DNA of 34,821 bases, taken from positions 1-34,821 of the IMG/VR virus record IMGVR_UViG_3300024520_002197, one strand, 5' to 3'. This DNA is from a virus. Position 1 is the first letter of the stretch, and every line of letters begins with the position of its first letter. Below, one piece after another: positions 3,139 to 31,483 of this stretch. The notes beneath the pieces are model-generated. The model searched no databases, was not told the origin of the DNA, and saw only the letters and a program-made list of their open reading frames with translations. The position numbers and the translations under genes were made by a program.

Positions 3139-3834
3139 ATGCCCATAATATCCTCGTATAAATTAAATAATACGCCTGAGCCATCTGATATACTTATAGG
3201 AACAGATGTATCTAATGGGCAGACTAAAAACTTTAATGTTCAGTCTTTATCTAACGAAGCTATAAATAACTATTTAAAACAAATTAGTTGGCAGTTTATA
3301 GTTCAAGATCCAGACCCAGATCCAAGACCAGAAGGCACTATATCATTTGAAAATTATGGTGGAGCTGGTACTGCTTGGAATACAATAAACAGTTTGTATA
3401 TAAATACAAATATGGTTACAGCATTAAATTCATTACCTTATTTACAGAGATTAGTGAATTTAAATGTAATAATAAATGATAGACGCGATATATCAAGATA
3501 TGGCGTATACACATTAAACTCTCTTACTCAAGTTGATTCAAGTTCTATTTATGAAATGGATTTAACTTTTATTTTAGGTAATGGAGTTTTAACGGCATTA
3601 CAATACTATTCAATACAAATCGACAGCGTTGAAAATGCAGATAAGCATTTTGAGTTTACGCAAGGAACACCATCAACTCAATGGGATATAGTACATAATT
3701 TAAGTAAATTCCCTTCTATATCTGTAGTTGATACTGCAGGTACTACTGTAATAGGTAGTTATGATTATATAAATGCAGATAGAGTTACTTTAAATTTTTC
3801 AACTCCATTTGCTGGAAAAGCATTTTTAAACTAA
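3139..3834 (+). CDS. Short tail fibre / fibre-associated protein
   Basis: A 231-residue protein between two fibre genes. The N-terminus (SDILIGTDVSNGQTKNFNV, about residues 16-34) resembles the adaptor module with which many small phage fibres dock to the tail. The C-terminal 60 residues match a recurrent fibre end domain: the segment TQWDIVHNLSKFPSISVVD, then an IGSYDY strand, and a last strand ending FAGKAFLN. The middle (about 50-165) is not recognised; it has an Asp-Pro repeat at DPDPDPRP. Spacing is 13 bases from the previous stop and 4 bases to the next start, so it is probably co-transcribed with both. A structural role in the adsorption apparatus is likely; the exact partner is not visible. 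Confidence 0.68.
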   Translation: MPIISSYKLNNTPEPSDILIGTDVSNGQTKNFNVQSLSNEAINNYLKQISWQFIVQDPDPDPRPEGTISFENYGGAGTAWNTINSLYINTNMVTALNSLPYLQRLVNLNVIINDRRDISRYGVYTLNSLTQVDSSSIYEMDLTFILGNGVLTALQYYSIQIDSVENADKHFEFTQGTPSTQWDIVHNLSKFPSISVVDTAGTTVIGSYDYINADRVTLNFSTPFAGKAFLN

Positions 3835-3838
3835 AACA

Positions 3839-5176
3839 ATGGCGATACAATTTGTAAATATAGTAGATTTTAATAATAACCAAGCTGAAAGCTTTGTTTT
3901 AGAAAATCTAGCATCAGATCCAACAGCTGGTAACGTAGGTAGACTTATATATAACACGTCTACTTCTAAAGTAAAAGTAGATGATGGAACTGCATTTGTT
4001 GATATATCAGGTGATATAACAGAAGTTGCAGCTGGTACATACTTAAACGGAGGTGGCACAAGCGGTGTCGTGACTTTAAACCACGATACAACTACTAGGA
4101 CAGATACTACTTCTACAGCAACTCCTACCTATGGAGCTACATTTACTGCTATAGATTCTCTTTCAACAAATGTAACAGGGCACGTAACTGGTATTAATAC
4201 TAAAACAGTTACTTTGCCTGCAGCTGAAGATTACACTTGGACGTTGTCGGCTGACAGTGGTACACCTCAAACTATAAATAAAAATGATACTGTAGATATA
4301 GCAGGCGGAACAAATATAACAACAAGTGTTGCAGCTACAGATACAGTAACAATAGATCTAGATGATAGCATTACACTAGCTGGAACATTAACTGTTAATG
4401 GCACTGGTCAATCAAGTTTCGCGGGTCAAGTAACAGTACCCGCTACACCAAGCGCTAATACAGACGCTGCTTCAAAACAGTATGTATTAGCTCAAGTAGG
4501 TGGAGTTGGTGGTTTCCAAGGAGGATATAACGCAAATACAAATACACCAGCTTTAACCGGATCGAGCAACGTCGCTTTAAATCAAGGTGATTTTTATGTA
4601 GTAACTGTAGCAGGTACATTTTTTACTGAAAACGTAGAGGTTGGTGATTTTATATTTGCCAACTATGGTATTCCTGCTAATTCAACTCCATTCGAGTTTG
4701 ACTACACTGTTGTTATAGCAGATCAAAACGTAGCAGGTGAAGGAGCTACAGATGGTGCAACTCAAAAAGGTGTTGCTGGTTTTAACTCTGCGCACTTTAA
4801 TGTTACAGCAAACGGTTTTGTTTCTTCTGATATATACGCAGGAGGTTCTACACTGGGTATTGTACCAGCTGGAGGTGCCGGCACTACGTTCTTGCGAGGT
4901 GATGGTACTTGGGCAGTTCCAGTAGATACAGGCGCTTTAGGTGATAGAGTCTCACTAACAGGTGGTAGTCAAGCTGGTGGTTTAACAACATTTACTTATA
5001 ATGTTACTAACTCTTTTGCAGGTGCTAGCGCTCTAGATGTTAAGTGCGAAGTCATAAGCTCTGCAGGTGAAACAGTATACGCAGGCGTAACAAGATCAGG
5101 TGCGAATTTAAGTGTTGAATTTGTAGGTTCAATATCTGATGGTGCTTACGAAGTATTACTTACATACGTAGGATAA
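3839..5176 (+). CDS. Tail fibre protein
   Basis: A 445-residue Gly/Thr/Ala-rich fibre. The N-terminal 60 residues hold the module GNVGRLIYNTSTSKVKVDD, a frequent start of phage fibre and collar proteins. Further on are DTVDIAGGTNI, SANTDAASKQYV (a widespread fibre hinge) and a segment containing GDFYVVTVAGTFF...VEVGDFIFAN that is clearly the same module as at the left edge of the first fibre gene here. TTFLRGDGTWAVP at about residues 344-356 is another standard fibre linker. The last 70 residues form an unrecognised beta-rich tip. The shared modules show that the fibre genes in this block are mosaic paralogues. The ATG at 3839 was chosen because it follows the preceding stop by 4 bases and opens directly into the conserved N-terminal module. 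Confidence 0.75.
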   Translation: MAIQFVNIVDFNNNQAESFVLENLASDPTAGNVGRLIYNTSTSKVKVDDGTAFVDISGDITEVAAGTYLNGGGTSGVVTLNHDTTTRTDTTSTATPTYGATFTAIDSLSTNVTGHVTGINTKTVTLPAAEDYTWTLSADSGTPQTINKNDTVDIAGGTNITTSVAATDTVTIDLDDSITLAGTLTVNGTGQSSFAGQVTVPATPSANTDAASKQYVLAQVGGVGGFQGGYNANTNTPALTGSSNVALNQGDFYVVTVAGTFFTENVEVGDFIFANYGIPANSTPFEFDYTVVIADQNVAGEGATDGATQKGVAGFNSAHFNVTANGFVSSDIYAGGSTLGIVPAGGAGTTFLRGDGTWAVPVDTGALGDRVSLTGGSQAGGLTTFTYNVTNSFAGASALDVKCEVISSAGETVYAGVTRSGANLSVEFVGSISDGAYEVLLTYVG

Positions 5177-5196: not shown

Positions 5197-8100
5197 ATGC
5201 CAATTAAATTTCTTAATGATGTCGCTGTAGACACTAGTGTCTTATATGTAGATACAACAAACGATAGAGTTGGTATCGGGACGACTAGTCCTGACGTTAA
5301 ATTAGAAGTTATAGCCACTTTACCCACTGATGGAATTATTGCTGACTTTGTAAACTCATCAAACTCAGGGGGCACAACAGCTGCTATAAAGTTATCAAAC
5401 GCAGATTCCGAAGCTTGTGATGTTGTTTTAGGGGCTAACAGAGTGGGCGCTAATTTTGGTTCAGACTTTTTTATATCACTATCAGATAGTGTAGATGGAA
5501 GTAATCAAGAAAGGTTTAGAATTACCGAAGCGGGCAACGTCGGGATCGGAACGACGAATCCTTCTCATAACTTAACTATAAATTCAGCAACAGGCGGTCA
5601 ATTACAATTTCAGTATAATACATCAAGTCGTTTAAGAATTGAAGCTGATTCAGGAGGTGGTTCTTATTACGCTGCTGCAGGATTTTACCATAGGTTTTTT
5701 ACTTCAGGAGTAGAACGTTTGCGTATAGATTCGTCAGGCAACGTCGGCATAGGCGTGTCGAGTCCGACAGCTAAATTAGAAGTAAAAGGTTCAGGAACTT
5801 CGCCAATAGTTTACTTTGGTAATGGAGTAGATAATGCGCCAAACAGACAACTTGCTTTTAGTGGTGGTTCTTCGGGACTTGTTTATGATTTAGATGCAAC
5901 AGGTGCTTCAGGTGTTGGCGGTCAACTTACACTTTCAACTAATGGAAGCGAACGTATGCGCATCGATTCGTCGGGGAATTTGATTCTAAGAAACAGCAGT
6001 TTGTCTTCGCCAACAAGTGGGTTTTTAAAAGAAATGTTTATTGTCAGCGATGATGGTACAGGGACATTTGCTATTAATGGTGCGAGCAATGGTTCTTACG
6101 GAGATTTTAAATTTATTACAAGAAAAGGAGATAGCAGCGACCCAATTACAGCTTTAACTATCGATTCGAGTGGTGTTGTACAAGTAAAAAATGTTGATTC
6201 ACCGACTTTACAATTGTTTAATACAGATGCATCTTTAACTGCAAATCAAGTTGTTGGCGACATCGACTTTTATCAATCCGACCCAAGTGGCGGTGGTGTT
6301 GGTGTTGTCAGTAAAATAAGAAGTATAAACTTAAGTTCATTCCAAGGTGAAGCGGGATTAGCTTTTCATACAGGCACAACAAGTAGTTTAACAGAACGTT
6401 TGCGCATTGATTCAAGCGGCAACGTCGGTATCGGGACGGATAGTCCTGATTCAATCCTTACTTTAAATGGTTCAAGTAGTAGCAGAATAAATTTAAGAAC
6501 ATCCGAAACAAGATATGGTACTATTTTTTCCGACAGTGGTCTTTTAGCTATTGCATCCATAACTTCTATTCCAATAGTTTTTGCAATTAATGATGTTGAA
6601 AAAATGAGACTCGATTCTTCAGGCAACGTCGGTATCGGAACGACTAGTCCTGGGTACAAGCTTGATGTTTCTGGCACCGGGAGAGCGTCTAGTAGTTTAA
6701 GAGCCCCTATATTCTACGATAGCGATAACACTGGTTATTACGTAGATCCAGCTAGTACTGGCATAGCGGCTTATCTTAGAGGTGATATAGAAATAATAAA
6801 TGAACAACCGGTATTAGAATTAAACGACTATACGGCAACAAGTACTACTAATTTAAACGCGTGGGTTTCTTTCCAGTACAACGGAACAGAAGGCGGTTAT
6901 GTTGGTTACGGAAGTGATGGTAATTCTAATTTATATTTAAAAAACTATAATGGTTCTGTTCTTATAGAAGGAACTTTAGCTGAAACAGATAATTCTTTCC
7001 GAGCCCCTATATTCTACGATAGCGATAACACTAGTTATTATGCGGATCCAGCTGGCACGAGTGTTTTAAACGTGTTAACAGTGGGTGGCAGTAGTGTTTT
7101 AACAGAGGGAGACACTGCAATAGTTAGAAGAAGAGGCACTATAACTTCAGAAGATTGGAATACATACATTGATGGAACTGAGGCTGGTTGGTATCAAGTT
7201 AATAACGCTAGTGGTTCAAATAAACCACCAGCTTATACTTACGGTACACAATTAAACTTTTCAACAGCGAACGCTAATAAACTTCAAATATACGCACCTC
7301 ACGATGCAACAGACGGAAATGGTGTCTGGATAAGAACGGGTTGGAGTACAGATTATGATGCTTGGAGAGAAATACCTCTATATGGTATGAACCCATACTC
7401 TGGAAGTAACCTCAGAGCTTCAGTATTCTACGATTCTAATAATACAGCTTATTACGTAGATCCGGCTAGTACAAGTAATTTAAATGATTTAACAATAAAT
7501 AGATATTTTACAGGTAAAGGTGGTACTAAAGTATTTGATTTATATGACAATTATTTAAGATTTAATCAGGGAGGAGAATTTAGTAGTGGTATTTGGATAG
7601 GAAGTTCCGATCTTAAACAGGGTAGTGGTAAATATATTGTAGCCGGTAGTAGTGGAGGAACAACAAATTCAAGGGTATACATATACGGTGGAACTTACAC
7701 AGGCGCTAATATAATAAAAATAGATGGTAGCACTGGTATTATTCAAACTAGTGCAGATTCTATGAGAGCCCCGGTATTCTACGATTATAACAATACTAAT
7801 TATTACGCAGATCCAGGCTCTACAAGTCAATTTAACGGTTTAACTGTTACTAACACTATAAACGGGAGTATTAGCGGGGCTAACGCTGTTAATATTACAG
7901 GATATGGTACCGGTAGTTTTACCTTTTATCAAACATCAAGTTCGTTTTCTGTATTTAGCGGTTGGCATAATTATTTTATAGGTAACCATGGTAATGGTAG
8001 TAATTATTATAACACTATTATTGCTATGCCATTTTGGGGATCTCCAAGATACTCAAGATTAGAGGGTGGCACACAACAAGGCCCTTTTGAATTTTGGACA

Positions 8101-8805
8101 AGTGAAATAGCTATAAATTCATCTCAAAATATTACAGCTCCAATATACTACGATTATAACGATACTAATTATTATGTAGATCCAGCTAGTACGAGTAATT
8201 TAAGTTTATTAACTGTAAATAGTTCTATTACTATAGGAAGTCCTACTGGCGCGCCTACTACAACTAGAATTAAAACGACTGGGGGAGGTTCTGGTGGTTG
8301 TGCGATTTTTATTGATGGATCAAGTCAATCAACTCAAATACAAGTGATTTTACCAACTTACGCAACTGGGGCGAGTTTCAACAACACAGGTGCGTTTGGC
8401 GCAAATGCTATGCAATTTTTACGTAACGGTCAAAACGCAGGTAGTATCACTATTAATACTAATTATTCAACTAGCTACAATACATCGTCAGATTATAGAT
8501 TAAAAGAAAATGTTGTTAAATTAACTGACGGAATTGAAAAAGTAAAGCAATTAAAGCCAAAAAGATTTAATTTTATTTTAGATGAAAATAAACAAATTAT
8601 TGATGGATTTATCGCGCATGAAGCAAAAGAAGTTGTACCAGAATCTGTTACTGGTGAAAAAGATGCGATAGATTACAATGGTAATCCTGAGTATCAAGGA
8701 ATGGATAACGCTAAACTTGTCCCAGTGCTAACAGCGGCTTTGCAAGAAGCAATTGCAAAAATAGAAGATTTAGAAACAAGAATACAAATTTTAGAAAATC
8801 AATAA
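5197..8805 (+). CDS. Long tail fibre with C-terminal S74 intramolecular chaperone
   Basis: A 1202-residue fibre, the longest adhesin here. Residues 1-490 carry five copies of a DSSGNVGIGTTSP-type repeat (near residues 24, 113, 181, 408 and 476). Residues 500-1000 carry five copies of an APIFYDSDNTxYYxDPAST-type repeat (near 502, 602, 740, 857 and 980). The C-terminus from residue 1097 is a peptidase S74 chaperone domain: SSDYRLKENV, then LKPKRFNF, GFIAHEAKEVVPE and a final coiled coil. In this family a Ser-Lys pair, here Ser1098 and Lys1103, drives self-cleavage just before the Ser once the trimer has folded, so the mature fibre should end near residue 1097. Family and cleavage logic are established; the receptor is unknown. 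The repeats use unusually GC-rich codons (GTC, ATC, ACG) for this genome. Confidence 0.88.
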   Translation: MPIKFLNDVAVDTSVLYVDTTNDRVGIGTTSPDVKLEVIATLPTDGIIADFVNSSNSGGTTAAIKLSNADSEACDVVLGANRVGANFGSDFFISLSDSVDGSNQERFRITEAGNVGIGTTNPSHNLTINSATGGQLQFQYNTSSRLRIEADSGGGSYYAAAGFYHRFFTSGVERLRIDSSGNVGIGVSSPTAKLEVKGSGTSPIVYFGNGVDNAPNRQLAFSGGSSGLVYDLDATGASGVGGQLTLSTNGSERMRIDSSGNLILRNSSLSSPTSGFLKEMFIVSDDGTGTFAINGASNGSYGDFKFITRKGDSSDPITALTIDSSGVVQVKNVDSPTLQLFNTDASLTANQVVGDIDFYQSDPSGGGVGVVSKIRSINLSSFQGEAGLAFHTGTTSSLTERLRIDSSGNVGIGTDSPDSILTLNGSSSSRINLRTSETRYGTIFSDSGLLAIASITSIPIVFAINDVEKMRLDSSGNVGIGTTSPGYKLDVSGTGRASSSLRAPIFYDSDNTGYYVDPASTGIAAYLRGDIEIINEQPVLELNDYTATSTTNLNAWVSFQYNGTEGGYVGYGSDGNSNLYLKNYNGSVLIEGTLAETDNSFRAPIFYDSDNTSYYADPAGTSVLNVLTVGGSSVLTEGDTAIVRRRGTITSEDWNTYIDGTEAGWYQVNNASGSNKPPAYTYGTQLNFSTANANKLQIYAPHDATDGNGVWIRTGWSTDYDAWREIPLYGMNPYSGSNLRASVFYDSNNTAYYVDPASTSNLNDLTINRYFTGKGGTKVFDLYDNYLRFNQGGEFSSGIWIGSSDLKQGSGKYIVAGSSGGTTNSRVYIYGGTYTGANIIKIDGSTGIIQTSADSMRAPVFYDYNNTNYYADPGSTSQFNGLTVTNTINGSISGANAVNITGYGTGSFTFYQTSSSFSVFSGWHNYFIGNHGNGSNYYNTIIAMPFWGSPRYSRLEGGTQQGPFEFWTSEIAINSSQNITAPIYYDYNDTNYYVDPASTSNLSLLTVNSSITIGSPTGAPTTTRIKTTGGGSGGCAIFIDGSSQSTQIQVILPTYATGASFNNTGAFGANAMQFLRNGQNAGSITINTNYSTSYNTSSDYRLKENVVKLTDGIEKVKQLKPKRFNFILDENKQIIDGFIAHEAKEVVPESVTGEKDAIDYNGNPEYQGMDNAKLVPVLTAALQEAIAKIEDLETRIQILENQ
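5533..6651 (+). repeat. DNA-level repeat encoding GNVGIGTTSP in the long fibre
   Basis: Four copies of a roughly 30-base unit start at 5533, 5737, 6418 and 6622, with a weaker fifth near 5263. They share the core GGCAACGTCGG followed by ATCGG or ATAGG, so the match holds in third codon positions as well as in protein. Each copy is preceded by sequence encoding (I/L)DSSG; at 5533 this is replaced by ITEAG. Conservation at the base level among otherwise diverged spacers suggests gene conversion or recent module duplication. Confidence 0.75.
6701..7032 (+). repeat. Exact 32-base direct repeat in the long fibre
   Basis: Bases 6701-6732 and 7001-7032 are identical over 32 bases and lie exactly 300 bases (100 codons) apart. 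They encode the APIFYDSDNT part of the second repeat family of the fibre. Further, diverged copies lie near 7416, 7765 and 8134. An exact in-frame repeat of this length is a plausible site for deletion or module exchange by homologous recombination. Confidence 0.8.
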
Positions 8806-9594: not shown

Positions 9595-11151
9595 ATGTCA
9601 GACAAGATTGTCAAAAACCTTAACTTTGGGGAAGACGCAAAGAACAAGGTATTTAAAGGTATAGAAAAACTCACAAAAGCTGTTAGCTCCACACTTGGAG
9701 CTAGCGGCCAATGTGTTATATTAGAAGATGATCAGGGTAAACCTGTCATTACAAAAGATGGTGTAACTGTTGCGAACAGCATTATACTATTAGACCCAGT
9801 AGAAAATATGGGTGCTACGCTTCTAAAAGAAGCTGCTAGAAAAACTGTTCAAGAAGCTGGCGATGGAACAACAACGGCTACAGTACTAGCGCACTCAATT
9901 TTAACAGAGGCTTATAAAAATTTAGATAAAGATAATATACGTAACATTAAAGAAGGTATAAACAAAGCTGTTGATAATGTTATTAAATACCTGGAAAACA
10001 AAGCAATAACAGTTGAAGGTACTATGCTTGATGACGTTGCTACAATTAGTTGTAACAATGATAAAGAACTAGGTAAAATAATTGGGGAAGCGTTTAAAGC
10101 TGCTGGTGAAAATGGTGTTGTTGTTATGGAGCCAACAACCGAAGATACTACAGAGCTTGAGTTAGTTGACGGTGTTCAATACGACAAAGGTTTAACTAAC
10201 TCTCACTTTATAACAAGCAAAGACAAAAGAGTAGCTGAGCTTGATAATCCATTAATATTACTACTAGAGTCACCTATAGAATCTGTGCGTAAAATACAGT
10301 CAGTACTAGAGTATGTAATTAAAAATAAAAAACCTTTACTTATTATTGGTGATTTAGAAACTGAAGTTCTAGCAACGCTAGCAATGAATAAAGTAAAAGG
10401 TAATATAAAAGTAAACGTAATAAATGCTCCTACGTACGGTATAAACAAGAAAGATATGCTTTCTGATTTAGCTTTATTAACTGGAGCTACTGTAGTAAAT
10501 GAAGATCTTGGAGATGATTTAGATGTTATTAATCCAGACTTTTTAGGTACTTGTTATAAAAGTATTACAGATGACATAGAAACAATATTACAAGTTGATA
10601 CGTCTACTGATGATGTTAAAAAATTAATTAGCTCAGTAAAAGATTTAATATCCAAAGCTAAAGCACCTGGTGAAATTATACGCCTTGAAAAACGTTTAGC
10701 TAGGCTTTCAGGTAAAGTGTCGGTTGTTAAAGTTGGTGCTAATTCAGAGATTGAATTAAAAGAAAAATCGGATAGAGTTGAAGACGCTATCTGTGCTACT
10801 AAAGCCGCGGTAAAAGAAGGTATAGTATCAGGGGGTGGTATAGCCTTGCTCGACGCATCTAATAAAACTAAAGCTAAAAGCGTTGGTGAAAAGATATTGC
10901 TACAAGCTATTAAAGCACCGTTTAAAACTATACTAAATAATGCTGGACTGGAAGAGGTTGGTACGCCCGAAGAAGGTATGGGTGTTAATGTAATTACAGG
11001 TGATATTGTAAACATGATCGATAAAGGTATTATCGATCCATTACTTGTAACTAAAAGCGCACTCAAACACGCGGCTTCAGTGGCTACCACTATATTGTCT
11101 ACAAATTGTGTAATCAATAATTTAAGAGTTGGTGATGAAAGCAATAGGTAG
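9595..11151 (+). CDS. groEL: Phage-encoded chaperonin GroEL (HSP60)
   Basis: A 518-residue group I chaperonin, about 30 residues shorter than E. coli GroEL. The ATP-site elements are present: ITKDGVTVA (Asp55), AGDGTTTATVLA (88-99, Asp90), GIVSGGGIAL (409-418) and DRVEDA with Asp397, the equivalent of the hydrolysis Asp398. The apical domain is recognisable (KKPLLII, NKVKGNIKV, LTGATVVNEDLG). Two oddities stand out. The near-invariant LGPKGRNV nucleotide-contact segment is LGASGQCV here (34-41), and the flexible GGM tail is missing, the protein ending RVGDESNR. It should form a folding chamber in the host cytoplasm with the GroES encoded next to it, probably for capsid or fibre folding. The order groEL then groES is the reverse of the bacterial operon, which argues against recent capture of a host operon. 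Confidence 0.95.
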   Translation: MSDKIVKNLNFGEDAKNKVFKGIEKLTKAVSSTLGASGQCVILEDDQGKPVITKDGVTVANSIILLDPVENMGATLLKEAARKTVQEAGDGTTTATVLAHSILTEAYKNLDKDNIRNIKEGINKAVDNVIKYLENKAITVEGTMLDDVATISCNNDKELGKIIGEAFKAAGENGVVVMEPTTEDTTELELVDGVQYDKGLTNSHFITSKDKRVAELDNPLILLLESPIESVRKIQSVLEYVIKNKKPLLIIGDLETEVLATLAMNKVKGNIKVNVINAPTYGINKKDMLSDLALLTGATVVNEDLGDDLDVINPDFLGTCYKSITDDIETILQVDTSTDDVKKLISSVKDLISKAKAPGEIIRLEKRLARLSGKVSVVKVGANSEIELKEKSDRVEDAICATKAAVKEGIVSGGGIALLDASNKTKAKSVGEKILLQAIKAPFKTILNNAGLEEVGTPEEGMGVNVITGDIVNMIDKGIIDPLLVTKSALKHAASVATTILSTNCVINNLRVGDESNR

Positions 11152-11398
11152 AAATATAATTATAAAAAAGAAAAAAGAAGATACCGTTAAAAAAACAGAC
11201 GGTGGTCTTATGTTAACTCACAAGCAGCGAGTTGATATTCGTTATAAAGAAGCTACTGTGCTTCATTGTGGTGATGATGTTAAAGGAATAAAAGAAGGTC
11301 AAACTATTTTTTATGACAAAAACGCAAGTAATCGCCTTGAAGTTAATAAAGAAGTTTTTTATGTTATACGTGATATTGATGTAGTTGTTGTATTATGA
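11135..11398 (+). CDS. groES: Co-chaperonin GroES-like protein
   Basis: An 87-residue protein overlapping the end of groEL by 17 bases. The frame extends to a TTG at 11129, but the ATG at 11135 gives MKAIGRNIIIKKKKED, which matches the usual GroES opening strand, so I chose it. The mobile-loop region (KKTDGGLMLTHKQRVDIRYK) carries the GG-hydrophobic-hydrophobic element that docks to GroEL. The next strands, EATVLHCGDDVKGIKEGQTI and VFYVIRDIDVVVVL, match the GroES barrel. A dedicated phage co-chaperonin has precedent in T4 gp31, which lets the chamber accept the capsid protein. The stop overlaps the next start (ATGA), so translation of the three genes is probably coupled. Confidence 0.88.
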   Translation: MKAIGRNIIIKKKKEDTVKKTDGGLMLTHKQRVDIRYKEATVLHCGDDVKGIKEGQTIFYDKNASNRLEVNKEVFYVIRDIDVVVVL

Positions 11399-12371: not shown

Positions 12372-12639
12372 GCAAATAGACAAAAAAAGTCTCAAGTGTA
12401 ATAAGCCTAGAAGAACACCAGGTCACCCTAAAAAATCTCACGTAGTTAAAGCTTGTGAAAGTGGTAGGGAAAAGATTATACGCTTTGGTGAGCAAGGTGC
12501 TAAAACTGCTGGCAAACCAAAATCTAGTGAATCTGATCGCATGAAAAAGAAACGTGCTAGCTTTAAAGCGCGTCATGCTAAAAATATCAAGAAAGGTAAG
12601 ATGTCCGCTGCGTGGTGGGCTGATAAAGTTAAATGGTAA
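12364..12639 (+). CDS. Small basic conserved phage protein
   Basis: A 91-residue, strongly basic protein that starts with GTG at 12364 inside the end of the preceding gene. The central pattern SHVVKACESGREKIIRFGEQ followed by SFKARHAKNIKKGKMSAAWW and ADKVKW is one I recognise from many marine phages and some bacterial proteins of unknown function. It has a Cys at residue 12 and another near 31 but no zinc motif. The positive charge and the conserved SFKARH helix suggest nucleic-acid binding, which is inference. The GTG start is supported by overlap coupling with the upstream stop and by the absence of an in-frame ATG before the conserved region. Confidence 0.65.
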   Translation: MAKQIDKKSLKCNKPRRTPGHPKKSHVVKACESGREKIIRFGEQGAKTAGKPKSSESDRMKKKRASFKARHAKNIKKGKMSAAWWADKVKW

Positions 12640-12950
12640 TGGGTTTTAAATTAATACCTCCGTTTGTATTAGAAAACACTCCAATATATCAAGTTGATAT
12701 GGAAGATGGTGTATTAGGTAAAGCTAATAATAATGGTACTATTATCATAAACAACAAAGTATCACCAGCTAAAATGAGTGAAGTTATTGCTCATGAAATG
12801 GTGCATATAGATCAAATGAAACGTGGTGATTTAGATTACGATAATAAAAACGTATACTGGAAAGGTAAGGTAATACCTCGCTCAAGTATTAAAGAAGGAG
12901 CAAAAAATTTACCTTGGGAAAAAGAAGCTTATAATAAAACTAAAAAATAA
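12639..12950 (+). CDS. Small HExxH zinc metallopeptidase-like protein
   Basis: A 103-residue protein counting from the ATG at 12639, which overlaps the upstream stop as TAATG; an in-frame ATG at 12633 would add two residues. Residues 46-59 read MSEVIAHEMVHIDQ, a classic zincin helix with His52, Glu53 and His56. A downstream LPWEKEAYNK (91-100) is the usual place for the third ligand, a Glu, in small HExxH proteins of this type. There is no signal peptide, so it should act in the cytoplasm or the virion. It could be a maturation protease or could process a lysis or structural protein. Proteolytic activity is inferred from the motif only; the protein is near the minimum size for a zincin. Confidence 0.68.
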   Translation: MGFKLIPPFVLENTPIYQVDMEDGVLGKANNNGTIIINNKVSPAKMSEVIAHEMVHIDQMKRGDLDYDNKNVYWKGKVIPRSSIKEGAKNLPWEKEAYNKTKK

Positions 12951-13527: not shown

Positions 13528-13926
13528 ATGAAAAAACTTTTAAGTCTTTTATCGGGCGGTATAATTAAAGACGTAGGTAATGTAATCGATAAACTTACAA
13601 CTACAGACGAAGAAAGATTAGCTGCTAAGCAAAAGATTCAAGAGTTATTAGAAAAAGCAGATCAAGACGCACAGACTCAAATTACTGAACGCTGGAAACT
13701 TGATATGCAATCTGATTCATTTTTGTCTAAAAACATACGGCCACTAGTGTTAATATATCTTACTGTTATATTTACGGCATTGGCATTTTTTGATGGTAAC
13801 ATTGGTGGTTTCCAGGTTAACGAAGCCTATATACCTATATTTCAATCATTATTGATTACAGTATATGGTGCATATTTTGTAGGTCGTACTTGGGAAAAAG
13901 CAAAGAAATCGAGTAATAATAAATAA
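13528..13926 (+). CDS. Holin, three-TM superfamily type
   Basis: A 132-residue membrane protein. The N-terminal 60 residues contain an amphipathic start (KKLLSLLSGGIIKDVGNVID), then TTTDEERLAAKQKIQELLEK and a charged coiled stretch. MQSDSFLSKNIRPLVLIYLT (60-79) is the hallmark junction before the first membrane segment (about 70-90). A second segment covers about 102-120 (PIFQSLLITVYGAYFVG), and a basic tail ends RTWEKAKKSSNNK. This matches the holin family also found in gene transfer agents. It should open the inner membrane at lysis. The start follows the previous stop directly (TAAATG). No endolysin is recognised in the window, so its partner must lie elsewhere or be unrecognised here. Confidence 0.78.
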   Translation: MKKLLSLLSGGIIKDVGNVIDKLTTTDEERLAAKQKIQELLEKADQDAQTQITERWKLDMQSDSFLSKNIRPLVLIYLTVIFTALAFFDGNIGGFQVNEAYIPIFQSLLITVYGAYFVGRTWEKAKKSSNNK

Positions 13927-13951: not shown

Positions 13952-14219
13952 GGCAAATTCAATTACAGCTGAAGAGCTTAAAACTATTCAAGAACAACAA
14001 GGAGAGTTAACTCAACTATTAAATCAAATCGGGCAATTAGAAGCAAACAAGCATGCTTTACTTCATAGAATAGCTGACGTCAACGGAAGCGTTGAAGAAA
14101 CTAAAAAAGAGCTAGAAGAAAAGTACGGCTCTATTAATATTGATTTAAAAGATGGTACTTATACTCCAGTACAAAAAGAAGAAGAAATTGACGGTATGAC
14201 CGTTGTAACTGAAGAGTAA
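13950..14219 (+). CDS. Small coiled-coil protein
   Basis: An 89-residue acidic protein. Residues 5-60 form a clear coiled-coil or helical hairpin: ITAEELKTIQEQQGELTQLL, NQIGQLEANKHALLHRIADV, then VEETKKELEEKYGSINIDL. The C-terminus is short and acidic (DGMTVVTEE). I have seen this pattern as a conserved small protein between lysis and packaging genes of uncultured marine phages, with no known function. There is no membrane segment, so it is not a spanin. It ends in a TAATG junction with the next gene, implying translational coupling. Confidence 0.6.
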   Translation: MANSITAEELKTIQEQQGELTQLLNQIGQLEANKHALLHRIADVNGSVEETKKELEEKYGSINIDLKDGTYTPVQKEEEIDGMTVVTEE

Positions 14220-14446
14220 TGAGTACTGTTATAAGAAAAATCAGTATCGGTTCTGATTATAAAAATGATGCTATGCACTACGCGTTAGGCCAACAGGTTT
14301 ACGGTGGTCATGAAATATCACATATTATGTTTGACGACTCTGACACTTCTTATAACATATTTATAAAGAAAAACGACGAGGTGCTGCCATGGAAGAAGTT
14401 TAATTCTAACATGGCTATATCTGTTGAATATGATTTAGAATATTAA
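14219..14446 (+). CDS. Small conserved hypothetical protein
   Basis: A 75-residue protein starting in a TAATG overlap with the previous gene and ending in another with the next. It has a conserved-looking core: RKISIGSDYKNDAMHYALGQ, QVYGGHEISHIMFD, then VLPWKKFNSNMAISVEYDLE. The alternation suggests a small beta-rich domain with one helix. No catalytic motif or membrane segment is visible. Similar short proteins lie next to packaging genes in marine phages; the function is unknown. Confidence 0.58.
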   Translation: MSTVIRKISIGSDYKNDAMHYALGQQVYGGHEISHIMFDDSDTSYNIFIKKNDEVLPWKKFNSNMAISVEYDLEY

Positions 14447-15051
14447 TGAGAAGTGTTTTTGATTTCATTATAATACCATATGGTAAAAGATATGATAATG
14501 AAATTGATTTAAACGGAGATAAACTTATAGTTAATTCTAGTATAGAAAACTTTAAGTTAATAAATAGAAAAGCTGTTGTACTCACTACACCAACAGCTTT
14601 TGCTACACCTATACAAGAGGGTGATGAAGTTATAGTTCACCACAATATATTTAGAAGATATTATAACCAAAAAGGTAAAGAGGTAGACAGTAGCAAAACA
14701 TTTGACGATAATAAATATTTATGTCAATACGATCAAATATATCTTTACAAACGTATGGTTAAATGGACAGCTGTAGGTGAACGTTGTTTTATTATGCCAA
14801 TTAAAAATAAAGATGACTGGTCGCTAGAACCAGAGCGGAAAAACAAAGGTATAGTAAAAATAGGAAATAAAACACTAAAGTCGCTGGGTATTAATGAAGG
14901 TGATTTAGTTGGTTTTAAATCCAATAGAGAGTTTGAGTTTATAGTAGATAAACAAAGACTATATTGTATGGAATCAAATGATATTTTAGTTAAACATGAG
15001 TTCAAAGGAAACGAGGAAGAGTATAATCCAAGCTGGGCAAAAAGCAGTTGA
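14446..15051 (+). CDS. Tandem GroES-like fold protein, function unknown
   Basis: A 201-residue protein that reads as two GroES-like barrels. Module one (about 5-105) starts FDFIIIPYG, continues GDKLIVN, has IQEGDEVIVHHNIFRRYYN (57-75) and closes with YDQIYLYKR. Module two (about 112-185) starts ERCFIMPIK, has KGIVKIGNKTL, INEGDLVGFKSNREFEFIVD and closes with RLYCMESNDILVK. In GroES the same order occurs: an opening strand, a gate turn, a VxxGDxVxF turn and a final DILA-type strand. The mobile-loop GG motif for GroEL binding is not obvious in either half. It may be a second co-chaperonin, a capsid-chaperone adaptor or simply a head-assembly protein with this fold. It overlaps the next gene by 56 bases just upstream of the terminase. 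The fold call is inferred from pattern. Confidence 0.55.
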   Translation: MRSVFDFIIIPYGKRYDNEIDLNGDKLIVNSSIENFKLINRKAVVLTTPTAFATPIQEGDEVIVHHNIFRRYYNQKGKEVDSSKTFDDNKYLCQYDQIYLYKRMVKWTAVGERCFIMPIKNKDDWSLEPERKNKGIVKIGNKTLKSLGINEGDLVGFKSNREFEFIVDKQRLYCMESNDILVKHEFKGNEEEYNPSWAKSS

Positions 15052-15271
15052 GGAACTTATTAAAGTTGCTGAAGAAAAAATCATTACTAATACTGAAGAT
15101 GATGTTTCTGCAGATAGACTTAAAAACGCGGCTGCAACTAAAAAGCTTGCTATATTTGATGCGTTTGAAATATTAGCTAGAATAGAAGAAGAAAAAAATA
15201 TGCTTGAAGAAAAACCTCAAAATACTAAAGAAAAAAGTTTTAGAGGTTTTGCTGAGGGTAGATCAAGATAA
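14996..15271 (+). CDS. Putative terminase small subunit
   Basis: A 91-residue mainly helical protein beginning 56 bases inside the end of the preceding gene and joined to the large terminase by a TAATG overlap. Its core is SIIQAGQKAVEELIKVAEEK followed by SADRLKNAAATKKLAIFDAF and EILARIEEEKNMLEE, with a basic Phe/Arg tail (KSFRGFAEGRSR). Small terminase subunits are typically encoded immediately upstream of the large one, are helical, oligomerise through coiled coils and bind DNA to start packaging. Position and secondary structure fit, but no helix-turn-helix signature is certain and the protein is short. It could instead be an unrelated packaging accessory. Confidence 0.55.
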   Translation: MSSKETRKSIIQAGQKAVEELIKVAEEKIITNTEDDVSADRLKNAAATKKLAIFDAFEILARIEEEKNMLEEKPQNTKEKSFRGFAEGRSR

Positions 15272-17496
15272 TGTACGAACAGTCTTTAGTAAAAACATTA
15301 AAAGACCACATTAAACCTAAAATTTTAAAAAGAAATAATAGGTATAAAAAATGGGAGTATGGCTATGACGTTGAACACGACGTTATTGTTATTAGTAAAA
15401 ACGGCACAATAGGTGATGTAATTGAAATACAAAACCTTAAAATAGCTTTACCAGCTACACATGATAATGTTTATGCTGCGTCTGATAAAATAGAAGATCA
15501 ACGTTGGGCTAAGTCGGAATACCCTAAACCATTAGCTAAAATTAAAAGTGTATTTGACTGGGAAAGATACCCAGTTAATTTTAAAGAAGAATGGTACGAT
15601 TATATTGACGAAGAGTTTAAAAGACGTGAAGAAGGATATTGGTTCTATAATAGAGGCGTGGCTACTTACATCACTGGTTCTCACTATATGTTCTTGCAGT
15701 GGAGCAAAATTGATGTTGGTGCCGCAGATTACAGGGAGTCAAATAGGCTTTTCTTTATATTCTGGGAAGCATGTAAAGCCGACCAGCGATGTTATGGTAT
15801 GTGCTACCTCAAAAACAGACGCTCTGGTTTTTCATTCATGGCGTCATCAGAGCTCGTGCATCAAGCAACAATATCTTCCGACTCACGCTTTGGGATATTA
15901 TCAAAATCAGGGTCTGACGCTAAAAAAATGTTTACCGACAAAGTTGTACCCATATCAGTCAACTATCCTTTCTTTTTCAAACCCATACAAGACGGTATGG
16001 ACAGGCCAAAGACGGAGCTTGCCTATAGAGTACCAGCGTCAAAACTCACAAGGCGTAAACTCGACCAAGGCGAAGCGCCAGAGGAACTCGACGGTCTCGA
16101 CACGACGATCGACTGGAAGAACACGGGTGACAACTCGTATGACGGTGAAAAACTCAAAATTCTCGCCCACGACGAATCAGGTAAGTGGGAGCGTCCGGAT
16201 AATATTTTAAATAACTGGCGAGTTACAAAAACAACATTAAGATTAGGTAGCAAAATTGTTGGTAAGTGCATGATGGGATCAACGAGCAACGCTCTTGACA
16301 AAGGTGGTGATAACTTTAAAAAATTATATTATGCATCAGACGTCACGCGAAGAAACCGCAATGGACAGACTAGCTCAGGATTATATAGTTTGTTCATACC
16401 TATGGAATGGAACTACGAAGGATTCATTGATTCTTTTGGATTACCTGTACTCGAAACACCAAAGGACGCGATTAAAGACGCCCAGGGTGATTTAATTACT
16501 ACAGGTGTTATAGAACATTGGGATAATGAAGTTGATGGTCTTAAAGATGATCAGGATAGTTTAAACGAATATTATAGACAGTTTCCTCGTACAGAGAAAC
16601 ACGCGTTTAGAGATGAAGCTAAGTTATCTTTATTTAATCTAACTAAAATCTACGAGCAAATAGATCATAATGAAGATATTAAAAACAAAGCCATGGTTAC
16701 TCAAGGTAACTTTCAATGGGCTGGTGGTATAAAAGATACTACTGTAAATTTTGTACCAGATAACAATGGTAGATTTTTAGTTTCTTGGATTCCACCTGCA
16801 AATCTTCAGAATCGTGTGATAATAAAAAATGGAGTGAAGTTTCCGGGTAATGATCACGTTGGGGCTTTTGGTTGTGACAGTTACGATATATCAGGAACTG
16901 TAGATAACAGAGGATCTAAAGGATCTTTACATGGTTTAACAAAATTCAGCATGGAGCAGGCTCCTTTTAATATGTTCTTTTTAGAATATATATCAAGACC
17001 CCCAACAGCTGAAATATTCTTTGAAGATGTTTTAATGGCATTGCATTTTTATGGCATGCCTATACTTGCGGAGAATAACAAACCTCGACTATTGTATTAT
17101 TTAAAACGTAGAGGTTATAGAAAATTTTCAATGAACAGACCAGACAAAATATATAATAAACTGTCTGTTGCAGAAAGAGAAATAGGTGGTATACCTAACT
17201 CAAGCGAAGATATTAAGCAAGCTCACGCTGCTGCTATAGAATCATACATAGAAAATTACGTGGGCTTAAAAGAAAATGGATATAGTGATATGTATTTTCA
17301 AAGAACATTAGAAGACTGGGCAAAGTTTAATATAAACAATAGAACAAAATTTGATGCAACAATTAGTTCTGGCTTAGCCATAATGGCATGTAATAAAAAC
17401 AAATACACACCAGTAAATATTCAACAAAGAGATACAGTTAACATATCGTTTAAAAAATATGATAACACAGGTTACATTTCAAAAATAATACAATAA
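15271..17496 (+). CDS. terL: Terminase large subunit (DNA-packaging ATPase/nuclease)
   Basis: A 741-residue protein. The ATPase half has a deviant Walker A, KNRRSGFS (181-188), with Lys at the first position as in lambda gpA rather than a GK(T/S) loop. Walker B is ILAHDE (297-302), with Asp301 and the catalytic Glu302, and the coupling motif is GSTSN (336-340). A C-terminal RNase H-like nuclease is indicated by HVGAFGCDSYDISGT, whose Asp536 is a likely metal ligand, and later acidic residues near FEDVLMALHFYGMP. It cuts concatemeric DNA and pumps it through the portal encoded next. The start is in a TAATG overlap with the putative small subunit. Residues about 171-310 are encoded by DNA of markedly higher GC content with C-ending codons, unlike the rest of the gene. 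Confidence 0.92.
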   Translation: MYEQSLVKTLKDHIKPKILKRNNRYKKWEYGYDVEHDVIVISKNGTIGDVIEIQNLKIALPATHDNVYAASDKIEDQRWAKSEYPKPLAKIKSVFDWERYPVNFKEEWYDYIDEEFKRREEGYWFYNRGVATYITGSHYMFLQWSKIDVGAADYRESNRLFFIFWEACKADQRCYGMCYLKNRRSGFSFMASSELVHQATISSDSRFGILSKSGSDAKKMFTDKVVPISVNYPFFFKPIQDGMDRPKTELAYRVPASKLTRRKLDQGEAPEELDGLDTTIDWKNTGDNSYDGEKLKILAHDESGKWERPDNILNNWRVTKTTLRLGSKIVGKCMMGSTSNALDKGGDNFKKLYYASDVTRRNRNGQTSSGLYSLFIPMEWNYEGFIDSFGLPVLETPKDAIKDAQGDLITTGVIEHWDNEVDGLKDDQDSLNEYYRQFPRTEKHAFRDEAKLSLFNLTKIYEQIDHNEDIKNKAMVTQGNFQWAGGIKDTTVNFVPDNNGRFLVSWIPPANLQNRVIIKNGVKFPGNDHVGAFGCDSYDISGTVDNRGSKGSLHGLTKFSMEQAPFNMFFLEYISRPPTAEIFFEDVLMALHFYGMPILAENNKPRLLYYLKRRGYRKFSMNRPDKIYNKLSVAEREIGGIPNSSEDIKQAHAAAIESYIENYVGLKENGYSDMYFQRTLEDWAKFNINNRTKFDATISSGLAIMACNKNKYTPVNIQQRDTVNISFKKYDNTGYISKIIQ

Positions 17497-21172: not shown

Positions 21173-22657
21173 ATGGCTGTAAGTCCTATATTTGGTGACA
21201 TTATTCCGTCACAAAAACAACAGTTGCTAGATACTAATTATCTATCATTTAATGGTGGAACTGGTACTGGTGACTCTGATACATTCGCTCAACAATATCT
21301 TCCTGAGATTTATGAGCAAGAAATAGAGCGATATGGAAATCGTACGCTCTCTGGATTTTTACGTATGGTTGGTGCTGAAATGCCTATGACGTCTGATCAA
21401 GTTATTTGGTCTGAGCAAAACCGTCTACACATTTCTTACACAGACTGTACTAACGATCAAGTTAACACTATCACTATTCCTGTAGCGTTAACTCCTGCTG
21501 ATCCTAAAGATTACGTTGCAAACGTAGTTTCTGTTGGTCAAACTATTGTAGCCGTTGATGCTGCTGGTAATGAACTTAAAGCTGTAGTAACTGCATCTAA
21601 CCTAACTTCTGGTGCACTTACTGTTGCTCCTTACACTGCTACTACAACTGCTTCACTAGGAACTACTGTTAAGATCTTCGTATATGGATCTGAATATGGA
21701 AAAGGTTCTTCTACTCCTAGCTCAACTGTAAGCGCTGGCGCTTCTGATGGGTACATTAGTATTGATCCTAACTTTACTCAATTCAGTAATTCACCAATTA
21801 TCATTAGAAGCAAGTATGTTGTTTCTGGTTCTGACACTGCTCAAGTTGGTTGGGTCGAAGTTGCTACTGAAGATGGTACTGGAGGATATCTATGGTATCT
21901 AAAAGCTGAGTCTGAAACAAGACTACGTTTTGAAGATTACTTAGAAATGTCAGTTGTTGAAGGTGAAAAAGCTTCTGCTACAGGAGCTGGCTCTGCTGCT
22001 AACGCTGGTTACAAAGGTACAGAAGGTTTGTTTGCTGCTATCCAATCACGTGGTAACGTAGAAGTTGGATTCGCTGGACAAGCTGCTGCTGCTGCTTTGG
22101 CTGATTTTGATTTGATTCTTAAGAACTTAGACACTCAAGGTGCTATTGAAGAAAATATGCTTTTCTTAAACCGTGAGACTACTCTTACTATCGATGATAT
22201 GTTAGCTGGACAGAACTCATATGGAACTGGTGGTACATCTTACGGTGTATTTGAAAACTCAGAAGACATGGCACTAAACCTTGGCTTCTCTGGTTTCCGC
22301 AGAGGTTCTTATGACTTCTATAAGACTGACTGGAAGTATTTGAATGATGCATCTACAAGAGGTGGTTCTGTAGCAGCTGGTGCTGCTAACTCGAAGTACT
22401 CTATTGAAGGTGTGTTGGTTCCAGCTGGTACTTCAACTGTATATGATCAAATTCTAGGTACTAACATCCGTCGTCCATTCTTGCACGTACGATATAGAGC
22501 GTCACAAACTGACGATCGTCGTATGAAGTCTTGGTTGACTGGATCTGTTGGTGGTGCATTTACTAGCGATCTTGACGCTATGGAAGTTAACTTCCTATCT
22601 GAAAGATGTCTATGTGTACAAGGTGCTAATAACTTCGTGTTATTCACTGGAGTATAA
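21173..22657 (+). CDS. Major capsid protein
   Basis: A 494-residue protein following the scaffold gene and closed by a strong hairpin. It opens AVSPIFGDIIPSQKQQLLDT and has FAQQYLPEIYEQEIERYGNR (about 43-62). The middle (about 100-230) holds an apparent inserted beta-domain, VSVGQTIVAVDAAGNELKAV to KIFVYGSEYGKG, before the capsid fold resumes at YLWYLKAESETRLRFEDYLE. The end, DAMEVNFLSERCLCVQGANN, resembles that of other phage capsids in this group. It is Ala/Gly/Ser/Thr-rich and low in Lys, and its codon use (GCT, GGT, GTT, ACT, AAC, TTC) is more uniform than in its neighbours, as in a very highly expressed gene. An HK97-type fold is inferred from context. It should form the icosahedral shell. 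Confidence 0.85.
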   Translation: MAVSPIFGDIIPSQKQQLLDTNYLSFNGGTGTGDSDTFAQQYLPEIYEQEIERYGNRTLSGFLRMVGAEMPMTSDQVIWSEQNRLHISYTDCTNDQVNTITIPVALTPADPKDYVANVVSVGQTIVAVDAAGNELKAVVTASNLTSGALTVAPYTATTTASLGTTVKIFVYGSEYGKGSSTPSSTVSAGASDGYISIDPNFTQFSNSPIIIRSKYVVSGSDTAQVGWVEVATEDGTGGYLWYLKAESETRLRFEDYLEMSVVEGEKASATGAGSAANAGYKGTEGLFAAIQSRGNVEVGFAGQAAAAALADFDLILKNLDTQGAIEENMLFLNRETTLTIDDMLAGQNSYGTGGTSYGVFENSEDMALNLGFSGFRRGSYDFYKTDWKYLNDASTRGGSVAAGAANSKYSIEGVLVPAGTSTVYDQILGTNIRRPFLHVRYRASQTDDRRMKSWLTGSVGGAFTSDLDAMEVNFLSERCLCVQGANNFVLFTGV

Positions 22658-25560: not shown

Positions 25561-28500
25561 ATGGCTGAAGTTAAAAACGCGTTCATCAAATCAAAGATGA
25601 ACAAAGACCTTGATGCTAGACTTATACCACAAGGTGAGTATCGCGACGCTGTAAATATACAGGTTAGTAAGTCAGAGGGTGATGACGTTGGCGCTTTAGA
25701 AAATGTGCTTGGTAATGTTAGCAGAGCTAATTTCGAAGCACACTCTGGTGTTTCAAACTTAACTTGTATAGGTTATTTTGTAAGTGAGTTCAGCAGTAAA
25801 GTGTATTTATTTTTTACAGATTACACAGATCTTTACGACAAATCCACTAACCCAACTTATAACCTAAACGCAAATAACTTTATATACGAATGCGATTTAA
25901 GTTCTAATCCAAACCCAACAACTTCTGCATCAATAAAGAAATTAGTTGAAGGAGCTTTTCTTAATTTTTCTTCAAACAAACCTATTATAGGTGTTAATCT
26001 TTTAGAAGATTTTTTATTCTTTACAGACAATAGAAACCAACCTAGAAAAATAAACGTAGCTTTAGCTAATCAAGAAAATATTAATAACCCAACTTATTAT
26101 TCTACAGAAGACAATATATCAGTAGCTAAATATTATCCTTATGAACCAATATCGCTAGTAAAAGAATCTACAGTGGCGCCAGGCAGTGATGAGTGCGCTA
26201 TGTATGACGCTTTTAGTGAATTTATCCCATTAAATAATAGTGCACAGCCTAATGTAACTAATCCATATTACGACGCTAATTTTCCTGGAGATCCTAAGTT
26301 TTTAGAAGATAAGTTTGTTAGATTTAGTTATAGATTTAAGTTTGAAGATGGTGAGTACTCATTGATAGCCCCATTTACTCAACCGTGTTTTACACCAAAG
26401 CAAGACGGTTATTTTTTAGAAGGTGACGAGCAGCAAACTTTCGCTAGCACAGTTGTTGACTTTATGGAAAATAAAGTTAATAAAATAGATTTGCAAATAC
26501 CATTACCAGTTATCGCTGATGACTTAAAAAATTCTTTTCATGTATCAGAAGTAGATATAATATACAAAGAGTCAGATGGCTTAGCGCTACAGGTTGTAGA
26601 AACAATACAAGCTAAAGATATTACAGGTACAAATCCTGTTTTTGAATATGTTTACTTATCACAAAAACCATACAAAACTTTACCAGAAGATGAAATAACT
26701 AGAGTATATGATAAAATACCAGTTAAAGCTTTAGGTCAAGAAGTAATATCAAATAGAGTTGTATATAGTAATTTTCAAGACAAACACACGCCACCTAAAT
26801 TTATAAAATATCAAGTTGGTGCTAATGAAAAATATGAGCCATCTAACGCACTTCCGTTTGTAAATTCCAAAACAACTATAGAATACCCTAACCATACATT
26901 AAAGAGAAATAGGAATTATCAAATTGGAGTTGTTTTATCTGATAGATACGGAAGGCAGTCTACTGTAATATTGTCTAACGATCAAAATCCTTCTGCTGGG
27001 GGATTTGGAGCTGACACTATATATCTACCTTACAGAGATGTAAATGATTCTATTACTTACTTAGGTGATTCTTTAAAAATGTCATTTAACGAACCCATAC
27101 AAAGTAATAAGAATCAAGCTAATTTAACTCCCGGTTTATATAATAATGATGTTAATGACGTTAATTATAACCCACTAGGTTGGCATACGTTTAAAATTGT
27201 AGTCAAGCAAGTTGAGCAAGAGTACTACAACGTGTATACTGCTGGCGCAATGAAAGGTTTACCATATAATTACAATATTTCTTTTCCTGGTCAACCAGGT
27301 GGATCTAACAACACTTCTTTTGTAACTTTAATTAACGACAATATTAATAAAGTACCTAGAGATTTATCAGAAGTTGGACCTCAAGATAAAAGTTTTAGAA
27401 GTTCAGTCGTGTTGTTTGGTAGGGTTAATAACACTAGTAATGTGTTTAGCAATATTGGTAACGAGCAATATATACCAACAAATGAAAGGCTTTCTTTTAC
27501 AACAAATGTAATTGAAGATTTGTTTGATTTATTTGATGTACTTCAGTTTGATTATGGACCTGGAGTAAAGGTAGATCCTATAACAAGTACAGATAATGCG
27601 TATCATGGATTTTACAAGTCAGATTCAAATCCTTTTATAGCTGAATTTATAACAACACAAACAGCTGCAGATCAATTTGGAGTATTAAATAGTCAAACTA
27701 ACAATGAGTTTAAAGATATAGAAAACTTGGCTATATTTGAAACAGCACCTACTATATCTAGACTCGATTTGTATTACGAAACTAGTACGTCAGGATTAAT
27801 AGAAGATTTAAATAACGCTGTTGGATCTTCAAGTGGAGGTGTTTATGAAATAAGTAATTTTGAATATTCACAAAATGAAAGCTATGGTTTAGACGCAGTT
27901 GTAGCTACTGGATTTAAATTTTTAAACTTTGGAGGCGTAGCTCTTCCAGCTACAGTTGAACTTGTTTCTGTACTTGATGACTCAGGTTCTGGTATTAATA
28001 GAAAAAACCAATTTACACTTTCTCAATTAGGTTCTCTTGAATTTGAGTTGAGAACAAATAGTTATTTTTATTACGGTGAAAATGCTAATATCAACGAATC
28101 TTATGTGTTTACTTTTAAAGCTACACACGGAACTGACGTTACATCTTTGCCAGTAAATGGTAATTTAGAAAATACACCACCAACAATAAACAATGAAAAT
28201 ACAGATACGATACAATTGCAAATAGGTGATCAATCTGTTTTAACAAACTTAAGTGGTGTTAATGGTAGTGCTGACCCGACTAGAGATACGCTTGGATTAA
28301 CATTTTCTATAGACTCTTCTACAGGTGCTGGTGATTATATTGTTGTAAATAACAATGAAGTTCAAAATAAAAATACATCGGCAAGTGGCTCAGGATCTTT
28401 CACGCTAAGACTTACAGACGCTGGAAGTCCTCAAGCTGGAACTGTAACTAAAACTTTTGATGTTGTTTTTGATGAACCAAATACAAATCTACCTTCTTAT

Positions 28501-29625: not shown

Positions 29626-29627
29626 TT

Positions 29628-31075: not shown

Positions 31076-31483
31076 ATGGAATTAAATATACGTAGACTTA
31101 CAGAAAACGATTGGAACACGCTGTGTTCTTGGTGGGATGCGTGGCCTGAATGGGTTAACCCACCTAAAGATTTTTTACCTGACAACGGTACTGGTGGTCT
31201 TATTGTAGAAAAAGACGTACCTATCGCTGCAGGTTTTATATATTACACCAACTCTAAGGGAGCTTTATTTGAATGGGTTATATCTAATCCAGATTATAGA
31301 GAAGCTGATAGAAAAGATGCTATAGAGCTTTTAATAAAAGCAGCTGAAGAAGTATGTAAAGCTAATGGAGTTAAGTATATGTTTACTATAGGTAGATCTA
31401 AACCTTTAATCGAAATGCATAAAAAACTAGGGTGGACAGTAGACAAAAGCCCTTCTCACGAAATAACAAAAAGAATAAATTAA
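31076..31483 (+). CDS. GNAT-fold acetyltransferase-like virion-cluster protein
   Basis: A 135-residue protein. It opens NIRRLTENDWNTLCSWWDAW, the usual first helix of GNAT-fold phage proteins, then a beta-sheet core (GTGGLIVEKDVPIAAGFIYY, then GALFEWVISNPDYR), a helix (AIELLIKAAEEVCKANGVKY) and the terminal LIEMHKKLGWTVDKSPSHEI. The acetyl-CoA loop (Q/RxxGxG/A) is degenerate: the corresponding place reads ISNPDYREADRKDA. Activity is therefore uncertain and the protein may be structural. It occupies the place of T7 gp13, just before internal virion proteins. It starts 5 bases after the nozzle gene. Confidence 0.7.
   Translation: MELNIRRLTENDWNTLCSWWDAWPEWVNPPKDFLPDNGTGGLIVEKDVPIAAGFIYYTNSKGALFEWVISNPDYREADRKDAIELLIKAAEEVCKANGVKYMFTIGRSKPLIEMHKKLGWTVDKSPSHEITKRIN

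Follow-up and report, generated by a model that had tools for sequence, protein, structure and literature searches.

A phage that carries genes for both a GroEL chamber and a GroES lid raises the question of what kind of chaperonin machine it makes, i.e., whether the chamber hydrolyzes ATP and joins its rings as bacterial GroEL does, which protein closes it, and which proteins it folds. We addressed this in a virus record of 34,821 bases (34.8 kb), referred to here as the window, which holds the structural part of a phage genome. A preliminary description of the sequence had reported groEL followed by groES, with a 17-base overlap, and had proposed a long-resident phage chamber with altered ATP handling and perhaps a single dedicated substrate.

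The groEL-groES pair and the phages that carry it

The groEL product matches the Cpn60 profile PF00118 (E = 1.4e-56, 192.6 bits) over residues 26-508, i.e., as a full-length domain, and PHROG 5725 ("chaperonin groEL") with E = 1.4e-134 and 450.6 bits. The groES product scores 33.8 bits against the Cpn10 profile PF00166, above the cut-off of 21.1. These matches and the coordinates (Table 1) confirm the gene order and the overlap, and the pair as first described is real. The conserved start codon of groES is the ATG at 11135; an alternative TTG lies six bases upstream, at 11129.

Table 1. Positions in the window of the chaperonin genes and of neighboring genes
Feature	Coordinates	Strand	Description
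groEL	9595..11151	+	518-aa group I chaperonin; Asp55, Asp90 and Asp397; LGASGQCV at residues 34-41; E434 loop and 465-470 segment deleted; GGM tail absent
groEL/groES overlap (17 nt)	11135..11151	+	One frame reads ESNR-stop; the other frame starts MKAIGR
groES	11135..11398	+	87-aa co-chaperonin; mobile loop GGLML; without roof hairpin
Second co-chaperonin-like gene	14446..15051	+	201-aa tandem Cpn10; PHROG 13932 "co-chaperonin GroES", E = 4e-23; Cpn20-like predicted fold
91-aa ORF between tandem Cpn10 gene and terL	14996..15271	+	Possibly small terminase, from position; no family match
Terminase large subunit (terL)	15271..17496	+	Relates the phage to elemo, Pervagoviridae and Pachyviridae phages
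494-aa virion structural protein	21173..22657	+	phrog_13704; probable major capsid protein

A scan of IMG/VR yielded at least 597 encoding stretches, the best 80 of which (68-96% identity) were examined. All 80 have groEL first, and groES followed groEL in every locus compared. When the window, the elemo phages and the Caudoviricetes record MW202828 were added to give 83 loci, the overlap was 17 nt in 74, 20 nt in four, 4 nt in two and 1 nt in two, while MW202828 has a 4-nt gap. Ratios of dN/dS against near relatives were 0.07-0.12 for groEL, 0.06-0.27 for groES and 0.09-0.12 for the tandem Cpn10 gene. The 80 relatives and the low dN/dS rule out chance, a pseudogene or an assembly artefact as the source of the pair, and groEL is a lineage-wide gene under purifying selection.

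The preliminary description had stressed that this order is opposite to that of bacterial operons. The order is genuine, but it is not special to this phage, being annotated already in the elemo phages (Elemovirus, of Flavobacterium) and in MW202828, where groEL precedes groES with the genes touching or nearly so and a tandem Cpn10 gene lies upstream of the terminase, as in the window. TerL of the window is 45% identical to that of elemo and 62% to that of MW202828, but their GroELs are only 36-40% identical to ours and are without the LGASG motif; in elemo, moreover, the pair overlaps by 1 nt and lies on the strand opposite to the late genes. In phages immuto, SJC03 and Calle_1 the chaperonin genes either follow the bacterial order or are spaced apart; in Calle_1 the sequence of genes is Cpn10, another ORF, then a GroEL about 40% identical to that of the window. 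Two further candidates for a reversed pair, crAss-like cr108_1 and Dulem 41, were rejected when the ORFs after groEL did not align as GroES.

The reversed order has very probably been reported already, because the abstract of a 2017 study of virioplankton chaperonins by Marine et al. reportedly links subunit gene order to GroEL phylogeny. Nor is the pair as such new, since groEL followed by groES is annotated in elemo and MW202828, GroEL was found in 36 environmental genomes of "group 2," the Bacteroidetes phage group containing phi38:1 (PMC5332604), and the core proteins listed for the Pervagoviridae include a "chaperonin cpn10" (PMC8776804). Like the window, Pervagoviridae (Cellulophaga phages phi38:1 and Calle) and the group 2 phages encode GroEL, a single Cpn10 and a tandem Cpn10.

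A megablast search with the first 25 kb of the window found no close annotated phage. In both the window and MW202828 the gene order runs from tandem Cpn10 through a small ORF, TerL, portal and a further ORF to the structural protein, and by PHROG and TerL matches the terminase, portal and structural set is homologous to those of flavobacterial phages of the Pervagoviridae, Pachyviridae and Elemovirus types, a likeness rather than a formal family assignment. Because phages with homologous terminases infect Flavobacterium, Cellulophaga, Maribacter and Tenacibaculum, the host is likely to be a flavobacterium or another member of the Bacteroidota, and the lineage probably consists of marine, podovirus-like phages infecting Flavobacteriia.

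Several other genes of the window deserve mention. Upstream of groEL, at 5197-8805, is a gene for a repetitive, tail-fibre-like protein of 1202 residues, whose C-terminus (SDYRLKENVVKL...) resembles by eye an intramolecular chaperone domain of the endosialidase type. A 105-aa protein (12633-12950) with an HEMVH zinc-peptidase motif matches the metallo-protease PHROG 87 (E = 6e-5) and is encoded close to a holin gene (13528-13926; PHROG 3427). The counterpart of a large virion protein of relatives (PHROG 14478, 1474 positions; a single 1470-aa gene in elemo) is divided in the window between the ORFs 25561-29625 and 29613-31070, which overlap and lie in different frames; the gene may be split or frameshifted, or the assembly may be wrong here. 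Within the structural cluster, at 31076-31483, lies a possible acetyltransferase gene, matching PHROG 17252 (function not known) and, weakly, the acetyltransferase PHROG 1249.

Active site and ring-ring surface of the phage GroEL

We compared 79 GroELs of the phage family with 79 from bacteria, aligned and numbered as in E. coli. The three aspartates singled out in the preliminary description (Asp55, Asp90 and Asp397) align with D52, D87 and D398, and are invariant in the family. T30, L31, G32, K51, D52, D87-T91, D398, G414 and D495 are kept in all 79 family members, and the group I nucleotide residues, including GDGTTT and the GG at 414-415, are invariant or nearly so. The segment LGASGQCV is present as described and is near-fixed in the family as LGASG[K/Q/R]CV; it is not an ordinary bacterial variant, Pro33 of the bacterial LGPKGRNV being found in 79/79 bacteria and replaced by Ala in 78/79 family members. 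The next position, K34 in E. coli, is Ser or Gly throughout the family (79/79). Residue 480, Ala in bacteria, is Val in 78 of the 79. P33 and A480 line the adenine pocket, and the combination of P33A with A480V suggests a pocket in which one change compensates for the other, not an ATPase that has been disabled. The suggestion of altered ATP handling is so far conjectural: the catalytic and phosphate-binding residues (T30, K51, D52, D87-T91, D398 and D495) do not vary, and P33A is paired with A480V.

Other parts of the subunit have also changed. In the apical domain, the binding positions carry Y199L, Y203H/N, L234Q, V263A and V264M, whereas F204 and L237 are kept; as judged from the alignment, this is compatible, but only compatible, with a single dedicated substrate. 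The D83-K327 pair of bacteria appears as K/R83-D/E327 in 15 of 27 non-redundant family members, a charge swap consistent with a maintained contact. The GGM tail is missing, as the preliminary description had noted; GroEL of the window ends in LRVGDESNR, and family tails of 4-10 residues are all without GGM, whereas 48/52 bacterial tails have GGM or GGF.

In GroEL, the published contacts between the two rings comprise a left site (K105, A108, A109, G110 and M111) and a right site (R452-E461, S463, V464 and N467) (PMC7960994), with a further inter-ring contact between K105 and E434 (PMC7289027). In the phage family the 417-440 loop is shorter by 5-7 residues, E434 being gone in 79/79, and the 457-479 segment is shorter by 2-6 residues, with position 467 missing in 74/79; in bacteria the lengths of both hardly vary. 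A109 is mostly Asp or Lys. The conserved contacts of an E. coli-type double ring are not kept, the E434 loop being deleted, 467 mostly missing and the other contact positions hypervariable. In related phages the losses differ: elemo lacks the E434 loop, Panino and Calle_1 the 457-479 segment.

The variability is concentrated at this surface. In the family, mean entropy was 2.21 for the contact set and 0.79 for all positions; in bacteria the two values were 1.06 and 1.04. None of 20,000 random position sets was as extreme; these counts do not correct for relatedness among the phages beyond filtering at 85% identity, and the alignment of residues near indels is uncertain. With controls matched for conservation in bacteria and gaps ignored, the family values were 2.61 versus 0.66 (again 0/20,000), and when the test was limited to positions 105, 452 and 461 the fraction was 0.0007. 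Position sets for within-ring contacts, ATP binding and the apical domain showed no entropy shift in the family. Relaxed selection on a double ring of the GroEL type would be expected to leave such a pattern. With the ring-joining residues lost or free to vary, and the contacts inside a ring preserved, the phage GroEL is probably a single ring or a weakly joined pair.

Other chaperonins provide precedents. Human mitochondrial Hsp60 does not have the two salt bridges and exists mainly as a single ring (PMC5575113), and single-ring Hsp60 variants are functional (PMC7174398). Like Hsp60, the chaperonins of phages EL, OBP and AR9 work without a stable double ring of the GroEL type, and the same is predicted for the family of the window. 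However, those phage chaperonins are far more divergent and are described as working without a co-chaperonin (PMC9598537), whereas the phage studied here has its own GroES.

Alternatively, this could be an ordinary double-ring GroEL/GroES system that has diverged fast, with the ring surface replaced by a lineage-specific interface and a reaction cycle like that of E. coli GroEL. A different ring-ring interface is possible and compatible with loss of the GroEL contacts: all catalytic residues and the K197-E/D386 pair are kept, Lys remains common at position 452 and Glu or Asp at 461 (K and E in the window), and the rebuilding of ring interfaces has a precedent in the chaperonins of Plasmodium (PMC7960994). 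However, a rebuilt interface should be conserved, and the contact positions are instead among the most variable in the family, in addition to the deletion of the E434 loop and of residues near 467. We regard this alternative as the less likely one.

A roofless GroES and a tandem Cpn10 protein

The predicted model of the phage GroES (pLDDT 90) has the Cpn10 fold, with a Z score of 11.4 to 1wnr_G, and its roof hairpin is about 10 residues shorter. In the mobile loop, a hydrophobic tripeptide follows GG; the motif reads GGLML in the window, and most family members have GGLLL or GGILL. The protein is the putative cognate partner of the phage GroEL. A co-chaperonin without roof loops is known in gp31 of phage T4, and the absence of these loops is believed to help gp31 in folding the 56-kDa gp23 (PMC6318259). 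The likeness to gp31 is one of fold only: T4 encodes no GroEL and uses that of its host, and the gp31 mobile loop is longer (22 residues). By analogy with gp31, a roofless GroES may suggest a large client. However, rooflessness alone does not imply one, because some bacterial GroES proteins, i.e., those of Campylobacterota, are similarly short at the roof hairpin.

The second co-chaperonin-like protein is of a different type. Its predicted model (pLDDT 81) has as best solved match the Chlamydomonas chloroplast protein Cpn20 (7ekq_R; Z 9.5 over 159 residues, 13% identity), and residues 1-104 and 105-187 of the model each match single GroES chains, indicating two Cpn10 domains in one chain, as in Cpn20. 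Pfam detected the second half only, below the cut-off, and a profile search against PDB sequences returned chance matches only; the likeness to Cpn20, at 13-15% identity, comes from fold comparison alone, and a co-chaperonin role of the phage protein is putative.

Among the best 80 IMG/VR relatives, the tandem gene was found in all 72 that were searched far enough (55 directly, and 17 with a locus cut short of it that were searched as whole records), and it is also present in the window, elemo and MW202828. In a reverse search starting from the tandem gene, groEL was found in 15 of 18 loci with more than 7.3 kb of upstream sequence. It was not found in the other three, which have 7.3-8 kb upstream before the contig ends, while the spacing between the genes varies up to 8.3 kb. 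Cellulophaga phage phi18:3 has two Cpn10-type genes, one single (3730-3984) and one tandem (14080-14682), with no Cpn60 match, and presumably uses these co-chaperonins with the host GroEL or in some other way. The tandem protein can thus exist without a phage chaperonin.

These observations bear on whether the tandem protein, rather than the small GroES, is the main lid of the phage GroEL, or a lid for the host GroEL, with the small GroES auxiliary or acting at another stage; it might also be a head-assembly protein with a Cpn10 fold. The presence of the tandem gene wherever sequence reaches far enough, its location near terL, the retention of both Cpn10-type genes in phi18:3 and the core status of "chaperonin cpn10" in Pervagoviridae all fit such roles. 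Against a main-lid role, almost all members of the family have a small GroES gene that overlaps groEL and whose product retains the mobile-loop motif; against a virion part, the phi18:3 annotation cites mass spectrometry for virion proteins but similarity only for the tandem protein. On this evidence we find both versions doubtful, and prefer the small GroES as the lid of the phage chamber.

Origin, proposed mechanism and significance

The closest bacterial GroELs, among the 80 best fetched, are about 42% identical to that of the window and come from many phyla. In free trees built with FastTree and IQ-TREE, the family (with elemo and Panino where included) fell outside all sampled bacteria and not within any bacterial clade of recent origin; its stem measured about 1-2 substitutions per site with IQ-TREE and 0.6 with FastTree. 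Trees with very divergent phages had long-branch problems. One GroEL, on contig OMJU01000080.1, titled Candidatus Rokubacteria, grouped firmly inside Flavobacteriaceae, which suggests a contaminated bin. The claim of a long-resident phage chamber is supported by the ceiling of about 42%, the long stem and lineage-wide purifying selection, but AU tests accept the family with Bacteroidota (p = 0.48) or with Flavobacteriaceae (p = 0.69) as one clade. Because these groupings are not rejected, the gene may have been captured from a Bacteroidota host long ago and have evolved fast since; from the trees, it is fair to say that groEL has been in phages for a long time or, at the least, evolves very fast. 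Another history, in which a host groESL operon was captured recently and its two genes then changed places, might cite acceptance of the Flavobacteriaceae clade, but is very improbable given the low bacterial identity, the long stem outside all sampled bacteria, and the GroELs of the homologous phages elemo, Panino and Pervagoviridae.

With better than even confidence, we favor a phage-encoded group I chaperonin system, made as a coupled pair, probably acting as a single ring or weakly joined pair, and folding phage proteins. In this scheme, groEL and groES would probably be translated as a coupled pair within the late (structural) gene cluster; GroEL would form a seven-membered ring with conventional ATP hydrolysis; and its cap would be the phage GroES, bound via the mobile loop (GGLML/GGLLL). 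The phage proteins folded in the capped chamber would most plausibly be head or tail components, needed in large amounts late in infection, and by analogy with T4 the 494-aa structural protein is a plausible candidate client. The roofless GroES may leave a more open dome, as gp31 does for the T4 capsid protein. The tandem Cpn10 encoded near terL would be a second lid-like factor that may act on the phage GroEL, on the host GroEL or in head assembly.

What is new is that four features occur together: the active site is intact, the ring-ring surface has decayed, the cognate GroES is roofless, and there is a Cpn20-like partner. The preliminary description had noted neither the ring-ring surface, nor the loss of the GroES roof, nor the second co-chaperonin-like gene. 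We raise, tentatively and at less than even confidence, the fuller reading that this is a phage chaperonin made single-ring by evolution, with its own co-chaperonin and two types of lid, i.e., the roofless GroES and the Cpn20-like tandem protein. If true, natural single-ring GroEL/GroES machines would not be limited to mitochondria, and this one would serve phage proteins only. Whether two chaperonin rings are needed, and how a single ring releases its lid, has long been debated; single-ring mutants of E. coli GroEL trap GroES. The phage group that carries these chamber and lid genes is widespread and marine, and a GroES-linked family from so abundant a group, with its ring-ring surface decayed and its active site intact, offers many sequences with which to probe the need for two rings. 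Its tandem Cpn10 gene adds a lid-like protein that may act on either the phage or the host GroEL.
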